51,278 nt of DNA from Poseidonibacter ostreae (GTDB lineage Bacteria > Campylobacterota > Campylobacteria > Campylobacterales > Arcobacteraceae): positions 1-51,278 of the forward strand of contig NZ_WFKJ01000018.1 of NCBI RefSeq assembly GCF_009208075.1. Direction: 5' to 3'. Below the pieces are notes generated by a model. The model had not been told where the DNA came from. It ran no database searches and worked only from the letters and a program-made list of their open reading frames with translations. Numbering within the stretch: position 1 is the stretch's first letter; each line of letters starts with the position of its first letter. Shown here piece after piece: positions 18,472 through 31,257 of the stretch. Made by a program: the position numbers and the translations under genes.

Positions 18472-21435
18472 TTATTTTCTAGTTAAATTACAGTTTTCAA
18501 CAAGGACATTATCTAAATTATTAAATACCTCTTTTGTAGCTGCTTCAATATTAACTGATAAATCAGATAGAGTATTATTATCCTCTTTATTTGCATTTGC
18601 ATTAATATAGTTTTGAACACCTTTATGAACTTTTTCATGTGCAATTTTTAATTGGTTCCAAGCATTTCCTGTAACAAATATTCTAGAGTTACTTTCACAA
18701 GAATCAATCCATTTTCCTAAATTACAAGAGTGACAATCAACTACTGTCCAAGACTCAAATGTATCTAGTTTTTTGAAGTTATTATCTTTAAAGTTAATAT
18801 GATCATTTTTATATTTTGCAATATCAGATATAAGCTCAACATCACAAACTTGTTCTAGAGTACTATTATCAATTTGTGCACTTCGTGTAAGTTCAATTAA
18901 TCTTCTAGATAAATCTTTAACCTCTAAAGATAAAGTATCAATAGAAGATGCTGTTTGTGCATTTTCCTGTGTAACCGTATCTAAATCATTAATAGCTGTA
19001 TTAATTTGAATCATTCCAGACTCTTGTTCCTTACTAGAAATAGATACATCATCAATAATATTCTTTGTTTGAATAATTTTATCATTAAGTTCAATATATC
19101 CCTCAATCATTTTAGATGAAATTTCTTTACCATGTTTTGATTTAGAACTTGCATCTTCAACTAAAGCTTTAATATCTTTAGCTGCTTCTGCTGATCTTCC
19201 AGCAAGATTTCGAACTTCTGCTGCAACTACTGCAAACCCTTTTCCTGCCTCACCTGCAGTTGCTGCTTCTACTGCTGCATTTAATGAAAGAATATTTGTT
19301 TGGAACGCTATTTGATCAATTACTTCAATAGCATCATTAATAGCTATTACTTTATCATTAATCTCTTCCATTGATGAAGAAGTTAATGATGCTAACTCTT
19401 TACCTGTTCTTGAAGAGTTATTTAATTCATCTGATAAAGATGCCATTAAAATAATATGCTTATTATTTGATTGAATTGTAGCTGTTATTTCTTCTATTGA
19501 AGCTGCTGTTTCTTCAAGAGATGCTGCTTGATTTGTAGAAGAATTTGATAACTTTTGTGCTCCATTTGATAAGATATTCGTTGAACTTGATAATTCAGTT
19601 CCTGAATTTGTAATCATTGCAATTAATTGAGAGATATTTGAACCTAAAAGAATAGTAGAAGTAACTAAAGATCCCATATCTCCACCCATTTGATTTAACT
19701 CTTTTTCAGCAATTGTAAATTTATAATTTCCACTTGCATAAGCATCAAGTAATTTATTTATATGATCAAATTTTATTTTTGTATCTATTAACATCTCATT
19801 AATATTTGTTCTTAATGCTTCAACTTCTTTTGTTGCACCATGAGATTTTATAGTATAACAGAAGAAACCATTCTTAACTTTTTTCATTACATCATCAATC
19901 TCTGAAACAACAATTCTATCTTGTTCCATAGATTCAGATGTTCTTTTGATTTGTTTATTGATTTCTTCAGACATTTCAGAGAATTCATCTTTACCTTTTA
20001 TAGTAAGTAATGTAATATCATCTTTTTCTCTTAGTGTATATTTAAAGAAATTAGATAAACCTTCTTTAAATGTTTCTAAAGAATTAATAATATTTTTCGT
20101 AATATATGAGGCAGTTATAAATACTATTAGTAATAAAATTAATGTAATTAAAAGTGTACTTATAAAAGTTTTATATAATGAATCTTCAATAGAAATTACA
20201 TTCTTTATAAGTTCAGAAGATAAATGATCATCTACTTTTTTTAATAAATTTATTTTCTTTGTAATTTGACCAAACCAATAAGTTGGTTCATCACTAAATA
20301 GATTTATACCTAATTTATATAAAGCTACCATAGCAGGACCATCACTAACTTTTATAATTTTATCTAACTCTCGTATATCAATATTATTAGTAGACGCAGC
20401 TGCAACTTTTGGTAAGCCATCATGATATTTTGCAAAAGTTTGCTCTACTGTTCTAATTAGTTCTAGCTCAGCTGATTTAAGATTTGGAAACTCTTTATAT
20501 TTATCTAATAACTTTAACAACTCATCATATTGAGCATTAACATTATTTTTATATTTTTCATCTCCACGAATAACAAAGTTTTTAAAGTTATGAATAATAC
20601 CACCATATCCAATATACTCTCCAACAGAAGCTATTAATTTATGCTTATTAACAGAATTAAGTAAAGTAGCTCTTATTCTATTTACTTCATCAACTTCTTT
20701 TCCTTTTACTGTTTTATTAAAAAAATCAATTGAATCTTTTGTTGCATAATGTTTAAAAGTATCAAGATATGAGTCTTGTTCTGAAACAAGTTTTCCTAAT
20801 TTTTCTCTCATTCCAGGAGCAAAAGAGTCTCTACTTAAAGTATTTGCTCCAACAGCACGTTCAATACCAGCTCTTTCTTTTGATAATAAAAAACTCACAA
20901 ATGCAGTAATTCCTTGTGATAATTCTGTATTATCTGTAAGTTTAGAAAGAACTACAACACTATCAAGTAAGCTTGCATTTGTATTTGTATAATAAGAAAT
21001 AGCTTTTCCAACTTTAATAGATTGAGTATCTACTTGTTTTCTTATTTGGGATATATTTTCTAATCTAGAAATTATCGTTTCTATATTTTTTTCTAAAACT
21101 TTAGAATTAAAAGATTTAGAAATATCATCTTTAAAACTCTTATATATCTTGAATCGTTCATTAGTAAGTTTTCTTTGCTCTACTAACTCTTTTGCAAATT
21201 TTTTGCCTTTACTACCAATAAAGCCAGCAGTCATTCCTCTTTCTTTTTGTGTTTCATGCAAAAGTGCTGAAATAGACTTTGAAAATTCTATTCCTACTTC
21301 TATTTTTTCTACTTTTTTTATTTCTTTATACATTGAAATATTTTGAGAAACTGCAAAAAACAACAACCCCAATAATGGTAAAGAAACAAGTAATAATAAC
21401 TTTTTCTTTATGGTTAAATTATTAAATAAATTCAT
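18472..21435 (-). CDS. Chemoreceptor with NIT sensor and CZB domain
   Basis: A 987-aa methyl-accepting chemotaxis protein. TM1 is about 11-28. The periplasmic part (30-423) begins as a NIT (nitrate/nitrite-sensing) domain with [13 protein letters not shown] (60-72) and continues with a [16 protein letters not shown] helix (277-291). TM2 is about 424-446. HAMP-like helices follow, then the signalling hairpin with the tip [22 protein letters not shown]-terminal CZB zinc-sensing domain has all four expected ligands (H879, C904, H933, H937). CZB domains in bacteria sense zinc and hypochlorous acid. It is monocistronic, with tandem palindromic repeats about 100 bp upstream. The specific ligand is inferred from the domain only. 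Confidence 0.92.
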
Positions 21436-24837: not shown

Positions 24838-27426
24838 CTATTTTTGTGTTAAATTATCATCTATTTTTTTAATATCTAAAATCATTGCAACTTTTGATTC
24901 ATTATCCTCTTTAATATCTACTAAACTTTGAATTAATGTACCTGTGCCTAAGAAATGATTTTCAATATGTTGAATAGAACTTTTTTTAGCAATTGAAATA
25001 TTTTGTAGAGTTGAAACTAAAATACCAATACAATGCTCAACATTATCTTTATCATATTCAAAAAGTATAATATTATTTAGTTCCTTATCTTCAATAGATT
25101 CATTAACAAAACTTCTTATATCAAGAACTGAAATTAATTTCTCTTTATATAAAACCATTCCTTTAAAAGGATTATCTTTATTCATATCTATTGACTCTTG
25201 TAACTCATCAATTACTAGTGATTCTAAAACATTTTTTGCATCAACTGCTAAAAACTTACTTCCTATATTAAAAGTAGCAAGCTCAATACTATCTTTATTG
25301 AAAACTTGAGTATTATTTAAATTTGTAGACTTATATTCGTTTTTATATATTAATTTATTAGAGATATTAATATCACCAATTTTAATAAATACAAAACATA
25401 AAACATCATTGACATAATCATCAACCCTACTTTTATACTCTCTGTAGCCTTGGGAACATCTAACACCAACAGCATAATAACATCCATCAAATTCAATAAT
25501 CTCACTATATTTATGCCCATTTTTTACATTAAAAAACTTATCTTCTAAATTTAAAAAAGCACCAACTTTAAAGTCTTGATTAGTTGAAGATATTATTTTT
25601 TTAGACCTATTAGTAAAAAAAGCAAAAACTCCTTCTTTTTTTTCATGATTACTATCTTTAGGAAGTGTTTCTTCTAACATTGAGTTAAATTGAGGTGTAG
25701 AATCAAAAACTATTGCAATACCACCATTAATCTTTTTTTCATTTTTTAAAGATCTGATTGCGCTTGAGTATACATAAGTTGATTCATTTTCATAAAGATT
25801 TGATTTTTCAAATTTTGAAACACAATATTTTGAAGTATCTTCAAGTTTAAGTGTTTTTTCAACCCATTCGCAAGATAAAACTTTTCCAATTAGATAATCA
25901 TCTTTAGAATTAGAAACGGCAATAACTTTTCCATTTTTATCAAAAACTAAAAGATTAGTATATACAGTATATAAATCATTAATATATTTTAAAATTGATG
26001 ATATTTCATCTTTTTTATAAGATATTGAATCTATATCATCAAAAGCCTCTCTAAAATATGAGGTTAAAGCCCACCATCTACAATCATTTGCTCTTTCATA
26101 TAAGTTTCTATCCATTATATCTATTGCTAAAGAAGATAAAAACTCACTATCTTTCATAATAGAAGAGATAATAGTTTGGTTCAGATTTGATAAAGATGAG
26201 TTAGCTTTTGTACCAGTAATACCAATTTCATTAAGTAATGATTTTGAAAAGTCTCTATTTGATGAGTTAAGTTTACTCTGAGAAATATTACCATTCCAAA
26301 TAACACGACTTAAATTATCTTGAATAGTTTTACTATTTGTAAATACATCTTTTAAATCAGAAGAAAAATGCTGTTCATTTTGCATCATTGATTCAATAAT
26401 ATTTTCATCAATATTTAGTGTATTTAATTCATCACTTAAAAAGGCATACTCTAAAGGTATCATAATATGTCCATACCATTTAAGTCCATTAAAACCCTGA
26501 TATCCATTTGTTTTACATGTTTTTGCTACATAATCTCTTCCTGCAAAGGTTACTATTTTATACTCTTCATCTAAAACAATAGGAAGTTTTGAACCTAAAG
26601 GAATATACTCTTTATCACTTGAGGCAATTACTATACCATCTTCATCTAAAATTGTTAATGCTTCTTTATTTCTAGTTTCAATTAAGTTATTAAAAATACC
26701 TTTCATCTCATCAGTAAATCTAAAACATAAACACAAAACTCCTAACTCTTCAGATTTTGGGTCATTTGTTTGTGTTACTTTATATGAATAGACTAAACTT
26801 CTTTTATATTGAGGAATAAAATCATGATATTTATATGTTTCAACATATTCATCACTTGTATTTAAAACTTTTTGTATAAAAGTATTTTCAATTTTATCAA
26901 CTTTTATATCATCATTTAATCTTGCTAACACTTTTCCATTTTTATTTGCTAATACAATATCAAAATAAACCGAATAATTGGATACATACTCTTTAAATCT
27001 TTCTTGAATTTGTTTTCGGGCAATAACACTATCTTTATTATAATCAGATACATATGAGTTTATAAAGTTTCTAATATCATCATCTGTTGCTAAAAATCCA
27101 ATATCTGCAGTTCTTTCAAAAAGATTTCTAATTACTATATCAATAGCTACTTGAGATTTAAACTTCATCTCTTGTGTAACTTTCTTAATTGTTTGTTCAC
27201 TTAGATGATTTAATAATGTTGATGTAAGATTTAAAAAATTATCTTTTGTTTTACCAATATCAATATTAATATCACCTAATTGACCAAGTAAAGCAAAAAT
27301 ATCCCAAGAAGAACTTAATCGACCTAACTCTTCACGATACTTTTCAACATCTTCTATATGTTTTATTATTGGATAAATCTCTTTTTTGACATTTATCCCT
27401 TTATAATTAATAAGTTTACTTGACAT
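24838..27426 (-). CDS. Double-Cache protein fused to a CheW domain
   Basis: An 862-aa protein. The start at 27426 is preferred over an ATG at 27459: AGGAG lies eight bases before 27426, and a TATAAT box (27451-27456) would start transcription downstream of 27459. Two Cache-like sensor units (about 60-330 and 390-690) are internal duplicates, each with an ERT/ERAND helix motif (IRNLFERTADIGFLATD and MDRNLYERANDCRWWAL) and a following xxNGKVxA strand. The last 150 residues (about 711-862) are a CheW domain with FLAVDAKNV and LISVLDIR. I see no membrane helix and no MCP hairpin. It probably links a soluble or peripheral ligand signal to a CheA array; the ligand is unknown. Confidence 0.85.
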   Translation of the reverse strand: MSSKLINYKGINVKKEIYPIIKHIEDVEKYREELGRLSSSWDIFALLGQLGDINIDIGKTKDNFLNLTSTLLNHLSEQTIKKVTQEMKFKSQVAIDIVIRNLFERTADIGFLATDDDIRNFINSYVSDYNKDSVIARKQIQERFKEYVSNYSVYFDIVLANKNGKVLARLNDDIKVDKIENTFIQKVLNTSDEYVETYKYHDFIPQYKRSLVYSYKVTQTNDPKSEELGVLCLCFRFTDEMKGIFNNLIETRNKEALTILDEDGIVIASSDKEYIPLGSKLPIVLDEEYKIVTFAGRDYVAKTCKTNGYQGFNGLKWYGHIMIPLEYAFLSDELNTLNIDENIIESMMQNEQHFSSDLKDVFTNSKTIQDNLSRVIWNGNISQSKLNSSNRDFSKSLLNEIGITGTKANSSLSNLNQTIISSIMKDSEFLSSLAIDIMDRNLYERANDCRWWALTSYFREAFDDIDSISYKKDEISSILKYINDLYTVYTNLLVFDKNGKVIAVSNSKDDYLIGKVLSCEWVEKTLKLEDTSKYCVSKFEKSNLYENESTYVYSSAIRSLKNEKKINGGIAIVFDSTPQFNSMLEETLPKDSNHEKKEGVFAFFTNRSKKIISSTNQDFKVGAFLNLEDKFFNVKNGHKYSEIIEFDGCYYAVGVRCSQGYREYKSRVDDYVNDVLCFVFIKIGDINISNKLIYKNEYKSTNLNNTQVFNKDSIELATFNIGSKFLAVDAKNVLESLVIDELQESIDMNKDNPFKGMVLYKEKLISVLDIRSFVNESIEDKELNNIILFEYDKDNVEHCIGILVSTLQNISIAKKSSIQHIENHFLGTGTLIQSLVDIKEDNESKVAMILDIKKIDDNLTQK

Positions 27427-27450
27427 TCTTATACTCCTACTATATGTAGA

Positions 27451-27456
27451 ATTATA
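27451..27456 (-). promoter_or_regulatory. -10 box (TATAAT) of the Cache-CheW gene
   Basis: TATAAT on the minus strand, about 24 bases before the preferred ATG at 27426, with AGGAG between. It argues against the longer open frame that starts at 27459. Confidence 0.55.
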
Positions 27457-27531
27457 CATTTTTTTAAAAAAATAATATTTTAATGACTGTATAAATAGTA
27501 TGCAGTATAGTTAAATAATATACTAGTTTAT

Positions 27532-28323
27532 TTACTTGCTTAAAAAATTTTGAGTAATATTAGATAAATTGAAAAATAAAAGTTCTTCATATACATTATA
27601 AGTTTTGACTGGAATATTTGAATTACCTGATAAAGATTTTGCATATAATAGATTTTCTCTTTCTTGTGTAAAGATTACTTTTATCTCATTAATTCTTACT
27701 TCTTCAACCAAAGGTTTTATCTCTAAGGCACTTAAAACTCTTTTCTTTTTTTTATAAACATTAATTTTAAATCGTTTTGTAAAATAATCTAATCTTTCAT
27801 CAAAAACAAAAATATTATATATTTCACTTTGTATTAATCTTTTTTTTGTTTTTAAAAAAGATTTATCTAATTCTTGTAAAAAAAGTTCATAGTTTGCTTT
27901 ATATTCATCTTTATTATATGAATCAATTTCAGTTAAGACAGCATAAATGTTTTTTGCGACAGTTCTTAATAATATAGGATCAAGCCAAACATATGGATTA
28001 TCAACACCTTTATATTTTAACTTCTCAATATTATCTGACATATTTACAATATTTAATTTATTATTAGCTTTTAAAAACATTTTTTCATATTTTTTCTCTT
28101 CTTTTAAAGAAAATGTAAAATATGCTCTTGTATTTGATAAAGATTGAATTTCACTAGAGCTAAGTTTCAAGTTTTTATTAGAAAAACTATTTGAAATAGT
28201 CTTTATACGAATATGATTTTTACCAATTTTTTTAATTATATGAGCCTCAAAAGGTAAAGTAGTAGTAACTTGAAATTTTGAGAAAAGTAGAATTGGAAGT
28301 AGTAATAATAAAAATTTATACAT
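27532..28323 (-). CDS. ZnuA-like solute-binding protein lacking metal ligands
   Basis: A 263-aa exported protein (signal peptide about 1-15) with the fold and landmarks of cluster A-I (ZnuA/TroA) metal-binding proteins: TTLPFEAHIIKKIG at the N-terminus, the VWLDP motif (112-116) and the EIKPLVEEVRINEIKVIFTQE helix-strand. The three metal-binding His are replaced: the usual PHxxEP position reads SNKNLKL, PHxWLDP reads NPYVWLDP (Y111) and FHDAxGYF reads FDERLDYF (174-181). The late Asp is also not seen. No ABC permease or ATPase lies nearby. It probably no longer carries zinc or manganese in the usual site. It lies 26 bases after aspS. Confidence 0.75.
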   Translation of the reverse strand: MYKFLLLLLPILLFSKFQVTTTLPFEAHIIKKIGKNHIRIKTISNSFSNKNLKLSSSEIQSLSNTRAYFTFSLKEEKKYEKMFLKANNKLNIVNMSDNIEKLKYKGVDNPYVWLDPILLRTVAKNIYAVLTEIDSYNKDEYKANYELFLQELDKSFLKTKKRLIQSEIYNIFVFDERLDYFTKRFKINVYKKKKRVLSALEIKPLVEEVRINEIKVIFTQERENLLYAKSLSGNSNIPVKTYNVYEELLFFNLSNITQNFLSK

Positions 28324-30138: not shown

Positions 30139-31257
30139 TTACTTAATTTCTAAAAATCCATAAGCTGTTGTTTTTAATAGTTTTGGTTCATACATTACTT
30201 GATTATCTTCAACTCTAGTTGTAATTAAACCTGAAATATTCTGATCATATAGATAATTTACTCCAACTAAAGTAGAATAATCAACCCAATTATAAAGAAT
30301 ATCAGAACCATAAGAAAGAACTGTATCTCTTAAAGTATCGTCAACACTATCAATAGAGCTTGCAAGAACTAAATTTGATCTATCTTTTTCTTGTGTTAAT
30401 GTTAAAACTTTGGGATTATAATTAATTTGAGTTGATAGAATAACCTTTGGATATATATTATAAGCTCTTAATTGTGATAAAAGTATTGATGTTTTAACAA
30501 TAGATGTATTTAAAAATAGTGTAGAGTTTTTAATTCTATAATCTTTTACAATACCTTTAAAGTAATTTCTTTTTTTCTTTATCTCTTTTACTACTTTTAT
30601 ATCAAAAAAAGTTGTATCATAAATAGTTTTTATTTTATTTGTTAAAAATGATTTTTCATAAAACATCGTATTATTTGTATTTGAATACTCAAATAATTTA
30701 TTTACCTGATCTTTATATGAAATTGCTCCATAAATAAAGTTATTGTTATGACTTACTAAATTTTGTTTATTTGTTAAAGGTAAATATACTTTTAAATCAC
30801 TTGTATCTGCACTATGTAAAAACTCAGTAACTCTAGGCGTAAACAATGCAATAACATTTGTAAATCCAGCTTCTTTAGCATCATAGAAAGCTTTTTGTAT
30901 ACTTTGTTCATCTTCAGATAAAGTATCAAATACTTTTAATTCATACTTGATTTTTTTATAATCAAAATATCCTAAAACTGTATTAATAGAAGATTTTGCA
31001 TATTTAGCAACTATTTTTGAAGGGTAAATAACTGCAAGTTTCATTATTTCACTATTATCAATAATAGGCATTTCATCTTCTATAATTGGATCTTCAATTA
31101 TTGGCTCAATCTCTTCTTCAATAGGCTTAATTACTTCTTCTTTTTCAATTGGGGTACCAATATCAGTTTTATCAGGAAGTTTAATTTCCACCTCTTGTTT
31201 AGTGCTACATCCAACAAAAAAGAATGTGATTAATAAAAAGGATAATAAATATTTCAA
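30139..31257 (-). CDS. Lipoprotein with LpoA/periplasmic-binding-protein fold
   Basis: A 372-aa lipoprotein with a signal peptide and lipobox FVGC (C17). A Glu/Pro/Ile-rich linker (about 25-65) leads to a domain starting MKLAVIYPSKIVAKYAKSS, with alternating strand-helix pattern and AFYDAKEAGFTNVIALFTP. This is the type I periplasmic-binding fold found in LpoA/LppC (activators of penicillin-binding proteins) and branched-chain amino-acid receptors. Outer-membrane attachment and peptidoglycan-synthase activation are inferences. Its start overlaps the UDG-like gene's stop by four bases (ATGA). Confidence 0.75.
   Translation of the reverse strand: MKYLLSFLLITFFFVGCSTKQEVEIKLPDKTDIGTPIEKEEVIKPIEEEIEPIIEDPIIEDEMPIIDNSEIMKLAVIYPSKIVAKYAKSSINTVLGYFDYKKIKYELKVFDTLSEDEQSIQKAFYDAKEAGFTNVIALFTPRVTEFLHSADTSDLKVYLPLTNKQNLVSHNNNFIYGAISYKDQVNKLFEYSNTNNTMFYEKSFLTNKIKTIYDTTFFDIKVVKEIKKKRNYFKGIVKDYRIKNSTLFLNTSIVKTSILLSQLRAYNIYPKVILSTQINYNPKVLTLTQEKDRSNLVLASSIDSVDDTLRDTVLSYGSDILYNWVDYSTLVGVNYLYDQNISGLITTRVEDNQVMYEPKLLKTTAYGFLEIK

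Follow-up and report, generated by a model that had tools for sequence, protein, structure and literature searches.

A gene of Poseidonibacter ostreae raises the question of how Cache sensors, which usually work outside the cytoplasm, could be joined to the chemotaxis coupling protein CheW, and what such a protein would do. The gene lies in the window, the whole stretch of 51,278 nucleotides that was analysed, and an earlier note based on its letters had read the product as a soluble tandem Cache-CheW fusion without an MCP domain.

Gene and domain architecture

From the preferred ATG, the Cache-CheW gene extends over positions 24838-27426 on the minus strand (stop included) and encodes 862 amino acids. 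In the ORF list an alternative ATG at 27459 keeps the frame open and gives 873 amino acids (24838-27459, minus strand); the residue numbering of this longer frame is used throughout. The product of 862 amino acids is the likely protein, since an AGGAG ribosome-binding site (27434-27438, minus strand) is situated 7 nt upstream of the ATG at 27426 and the homologues start there, opening with MSxxLxNYKG at the equivalent of Met12 of the longer frame. In Arcobacteraceae loci the genes are ordered as aspS, metal-binding protein, Cache-CheW, ygiQ and adenylate kinase. No che gene adjoins the Cache-CheW gene in these loci, and their operon context gives no clue to its function. The conserved neighbour in the window (27532-28323) encodes a short ZnuA-like metal-binding protein of 263 aa, which stays under every NCBIfam cut-off. 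An MCP composed of a NIT sensor, an MCP signalling domain and a C-terminal CZB zinc-binding domain is encoded at 18472-21435, and a putative lipoprotein starting with MKYLLSFLLITFFFVGCS at 30139-31257, the latter with no Pfam or NCBIfam match above cut-off.

Pfam analysis assigned dCache_1 (PF02743) over two stretches with 64.4 bits (cut-off 45) and CheW (PF01584) at the C-terminus, residues 728-866, with 29.6-33.9 bits (cut-off 23.5). The methylated MCPsignal hairpin (PF00015) was absent up to an E value of 1, and the neighbouring MCP reached 119.8 bits in the same scan. No receiver domain (Response_reg) was matched either, the chain ending with CheW, and NCBIfam holds no model for the protein. 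A PDB sequence search with the full protein as query gave no real match, and comparison was therefore made by structure, on an AlphaFold2 model built from a 53-sequence alignment (mean pLDDT 83, pTM 0.74).

In this model each half is predicted to form a helical hairpin followed by a double Cache (dCache) domain, whose two PAS-like lobes are preceded by a long N-terminal helix (69-123 and 402-463). Sensor unit 1 comprises residues 36-345 (26425-27354, minus strand), with its hairpin at 36-61/69-123 and the Pfam dCache_1 match at 119-329. Sensor unit 2 comprises residues 367-697 (25369-26361, minus strand), with its hairpin at 367-396/402-463; predicted residues 424-696 aligned with a Z score of about 20 to dCache sensors, DctB among them (VIA-align). 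A linker of residues 698-723 (25291-25368, minus strand) follows, modelled with low confidence (pLDDT under 50 at 700-717) and probably flexible. The CheW-like domain occupies residues 724-873 (24841-25290, minus strand) and is predicted to be a two-subdomain beta-barrel, as in CheW; it was superimposed on CheW of T. tengcongensis (2qdl) with a Z score of 17.1 and an rmsd of 2.4 over 138 residues. Foldseek concurred with both the dCache and the CheW structure matches.

The two sensor halves derive from a duplication, because a profile-profile comparison by hhalign aligned unit 1 to unit 2 over 263 columns with a probability of 99.0 and an E value of 2e-18. The long-helix motif RNLFERTADIGFLAT / RNLYERANDCRWWAL is present in both units, RNL-F/Y-ER being the mark common to both halves. 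Where the long helix of unit 1 ends, the motif RNLFERTADIGFL (residues 111-123; 27091-27129, minus strand) is invariant at 11 of 13 positions in 53 homologues, with F114 and T117 kept in 90% or more. The unit 2 motif DRNLYERANDCRWWAL (450-465; 26065-26112, minus strand) is invariant over 450-464, L465 being kept in 90% or more. It contains Cys460 (CRWW motif; window 26080-26082), which is invariant in the 53 representatives and for which a redox or metal role is possible.

These results bear out the earlier note on the fusion to CheW, the predicted CheW fold at the C-terminus, the lack of an MCP domain and the internal duplication that it had drawn from the shared motif. Its count of two Cache-like units needs correction: the duplication holds, and with a dCache predicted in each half there are four PAS-like lobes, not two.

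Cellular location and the role of the Cache units

In 19-residue windows the Kyte-Doolittle mean of the Cache-CheW protein did not exceed 1.43, a value reached where the second Cache unit ends; the first 60 residues peaked at -0.03, which describes a hydrophilic N-terminus. The MCP of the window, used for comparison, gave 2.84 overall and 2.26 in its first 60 residues. By hydropathy, then, the protein has no membrane-strength hydrophobic segment or signal peptide, as the earlier note had supposed, and nearly all of about 100 homologues likewise lack membrane-strength hydropathy. In one exception (L019) the usual start motif is preceded by a hydrophobic N-terminus, which more probably reflects a start called too far upstream. 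A periplasmic placement was ruled out by hydropathy across the same set of about 100 homologues. A cytoplasmic location is the best reading, because the hydropathy of the protein is low and a CheW domain stands at the end of the chain.

The extracytoplasmic location, usual though not universal for Cache domains, would thus not apply here. A survey that covered 31,572 Cache sequences placed 78% of Cache domains confidently outside the cell and two small families principally inside it (PMC4822843); given this survey, a cytoplasmic Cache is unusual, yet with precedent. The rarity of cytoplasmic Cache domains (PMC4822843) could also point to units that act as a structural or dimerisation scaffold and are no longer ligand sensors, the more so as a run on the long helix, away from the usual pocket strands, is among the most conserved positions. 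Many invariant residues in the 53 homologues are, however, located in the PAS-like lobes (Y500, S516, Y545, Y556, Y562, Y564 and D586), as a fixed pocket would predict, and we regard the scaffold role as highly improbable. No canonical amino-acid Cache motif was seen by eye in either unit.

Distribution of the family and link to chemotaxis

In a species-level genome collection at least 586 stretches encode a relative of the Cache-CheW protein, nearly always at full length, and the matches listed belong to Campylobacterota, Pseudomonadota, Deferribacterota and Thermodesulfobacteriota. A profile of the second Cache unit matched in 29 of 200 genomes of Campylobacterota and in 26 of 200 from the order of Rhodocyclus. 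Frames in both sets measure about 860-990 aa, apart from versions without CheW in Campylobacterota (about 620-750 aa) and a few shorter ones, apparently fragments; none of the frames inspected was fused to an MCP, kinase or cyclase. In a tree of the sensor part, a branch with full support sets apart all CheW-tailed members from the four phyla, the root not being fixed. This placement suggests that the Cache-CheW fusion arose once and has been kept ever since. The gene is dispensable, since it is missing from a complete genome of the same genus (G004) that encodes CheA. In another genome (G026, L145:3289-7359) an insertion carrying a DDE transposase of 391 aa interrupts the gene and leaves it in two parts.

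The family is present in 26 of 60 relatives. CheA was found in all 26 of these and the family in none of the nine CheA-less relatives (Fisher p 0.004, relatedness not corrected). Across phyla, CheA was present in 22 of 22 carriers. In addition, the CheW-less sister genes of Campylobacterota are found close to cheV in two loci, where cheV follows directly (L142, 11167-14097) or lies two genes upstream (L143, 5242-9262). The tie to chemotaxis thus has support from CheA in every carrier genome tested and from cheV beside or near two sister genes. The CheW-less sisters (L142, L143, L188-L204) conserve TTLTGKISSL..A..LF and NGEIIASK at their helical hairpins, and for them the coupling domain may act in trans. 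MCP genes adjoin some Pseudomonadota members (L068, L071, L086, L111) and were given no weight, because MCP genes are numerous there. In one genome (G010, L136:10876-11685), about 1.1 kb separate the Cache-CheW gene from a CheA-like frame of 270 aa that has dimerisation and ATPase domains only and is possibly a fragment or a pseudogene.

In a further reading, the sensor would serve not the flagellar array but a different target, for instance an additional kinase of chemosensory type, and CheW would be a mere docking module. The isolation of the gene from che genes in Arcobacteraceae, the several CheA proteins encoded in many carrier genomes across phyla and the CheW-less versions in Campylobacterota would agree with this. 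The host, however, encodes exactly one CheA, together with one CheW, one CheV and 21 MCPs, and CheW domains have been described as exclusive to chemosensory systems (PMC10542144), so that a non-array target appears distinctly improbable.

The apparently altered CheA face and the proposed function

All 53 representatives matched PF01584. Conservation within the protein is lowest in the CheW domain (mean identity 0.30 vs 0.50 for the sensors). Purifying selection acts on this domain within the genus (dN 0.09-0.21 vs dS 0.49-1.54); its rate resembles that of the sensors, and it evolves faster than the host CheW protein. With E. coli numbering transferred by alignment of sequences only, Gly57 is kept in 53 of 53, Val/Ile36 in 52, Glu/Asp18 in 51 and the Glu38 equivalent in 46, and position 107 is acidic in 40. 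The stretch Asn60-Leu61-Arg62-Gly63 is replaced in the family, Arg62 being found in only 10 and Gly63 in only 15 of the 53. The protein studied here differs from a canonical CheW: Gly57 and Glu38 are kept, but Arg62 is changed to Lys and Gly63 to Glu. It is also no single-domain scaffold, about 700 of its 862-873 residues being sensor.

In CheW, positions 18 and 107 touch receptors in a core-unit model (PMC6954272). Mutations of Glu38, which also has a structural role, weaken receptor binding, and residues 55-68 are the proposed CheA-binding strand; Gly57 and Gly63 are conserved in F1 and F7 CheW, and Arg62 and Glu38 in F7 (PMC3828127). The receptor side of the family's CheW domain looks preserved and the CheA side altered, because Glu38, Val36, Glu18 and an acidic position 107 are kept in most members whereas Asn60, Arg62 and Gly63 are not. 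This could indicate a domain that docks on receptors but does not activate CheA in the normal way. The direct plugging into the CheA array put forward in the earlier note is consequently less sure than docking on the receptor array, since the lost Arg62 and Gly63 lie near the proposed CheA-binding strand.

These substitutions bear on the main rival explanation, in which the protein binds receptor tips without a productive CheA interface and competes with CheW/CheV or caps ring positions, lowering or reshaping CheA activation according to the Cache ligand. The R62A mutant of E. coli CheW, which still binds and yet impairs chemotaxis (PMC3828127), would fit such a role, as would the retained receptor positions next to the replaced 60-63 stretch. 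Against it, a Glu-Lys/Arg pair is still possible in 27 of the 53 representatives, including this protein, in which Glu746-Lys772 could stand in for the Glu38-Arg62 bridge. Conservation of Glu38 may also reflect its structural role, position 107 is Asn here and not acidic, and the interface residues were assigned by alignment. Such a role as a receptor-docking tuner is judged rather unlikely.

The favoured and reasonably probable reading is a cytoplasmic coupling protein in which the dCache units sense an intracellular signal, CheW provides the anchor to the array and CheA activity is tuned. Its basis in this analysis consists of the architecture, the predicted folds, the duplication, the lack of hydrophobic membrane segments, conservation, the single clade and the co-occurrence with CheA. 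The retained receptor-side residues, purifying selection on the CheW domain, the chemotaxis proteins available in the host and the cheV genes near CheW-less sisters also speak for it. Against it stand the absence of a neighbouring che gene in Arcobacteraceae, the substitutions at positions 62 and 63, the comparatively low conservation of the CheW domain and the dispensability of the gene. Past the architecture, we infer each step. The two dCache units would read a putative intracellular small molecule, or the metabolic or redox state; the CheW-like domain would anchor the protein to the baseplate of the chemoreceptors, at the receptor tips, in CheA/CheW rings or at both. Movement of Cache upon ligand binding would then change the coupling, CheA activity, in one direction or the other, and finally swimming. 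It is a more tentative idea, and a doubtful one, that these proteins form a third widespread coupling class beside CheW and CheV, soluble and tandem-dCache, with the receptor face kept and the CheA face changed, through which metabolites gate receptor-kinase coupling at the baseplate and bypass receptors and methylation.

Through Cache-CheW, an internal signal probably reaches the steering system of the cell directly, and the family is conserved and apparently unstudied: no Cache-CheW protein was found in the literature searched, though the fusion may be listed among unstudied CheW architectures. CheW has long been viewed as a passive linker, with CheWS of spirochaetes as one characterised fused sensor. 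A conserved Cache-CheW family in at least four phyla would show that CheW-based sensing is common; if so, many environmental bacteria gain a receptor-independent input, and tuning of array coupling from inside the cell becomes directly testable. Cache-CheW would also be a further clear case of cytoplasmic Cache sensors.

Among known systems, the sensor fold is common to the dCache chemoreceptors Tlp1/Tlp3 of Campylobacter, PctA and McpX, in which dCache is the periplasmic part of a membrane MCP, whereas Cache-CheW is cytoplasmic, tandem and without an MCP domain. Cytoplasmic chemoreceptors such as TlpD also give a soluble input to the array, as is proposed for Cache-CheW. TlpD carries an MCP hairpin, and Cache-CheW has none. 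The likeness to CheV, a CheW-receiver fusion, is looser: a CheW-like coupling domain is joined to an input domain in both, but the input of CheV is phosphorylation of its receiver domain, which Cache-CheW lacks. In the CheW-CZB and CheW-PAS proteins, listed in PMC10653840, CheW is likewise fused to a cytoplasmic sensor domain, of a different fold; for CZB domains, sensing of hypochlorous acid has been described. The closest counterpart is CheWS (CheW-CheRlike) of Treponema denticola, which is soluble and has CheW fused to a cytoplasmic small-molecule sensor (PMC10653840, PMC7666581), the ligand role of Cache-CheW being putative. By its predicted domains, Cache-CheW joins this class as a single soluble chain that combines CheW with a sensor domain of known type. 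PMC10653840 describes CheWS as a SAM sensor anchored to arrays, and its authors regard it as the first CheW-fused sensor to be characterised; the paper also points to 30 unstudied CheW architectures, 12 with input domains (Fig. S10). CheWS is the experimental precedent for the proposed array-anchored sensor. Since such a sensor is characterised, the signalling principle is already known, and the earlier note, although reasonable in outline, is not supported in its "different way" of feeding cytoplasmic signals into chemotaxis. CheWS has CheW first and a degenerate CheR that binds SAM, and is confined to spirochaete F2 systems, unlike Cache-CheW, with its duplicated dCache, C-terminal CheW and occurrence in four other phyla. 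What this analysis adds is the tandem-dCache version, together with its breadth, an origin that appears to be single and a seemingly altered CheA face.
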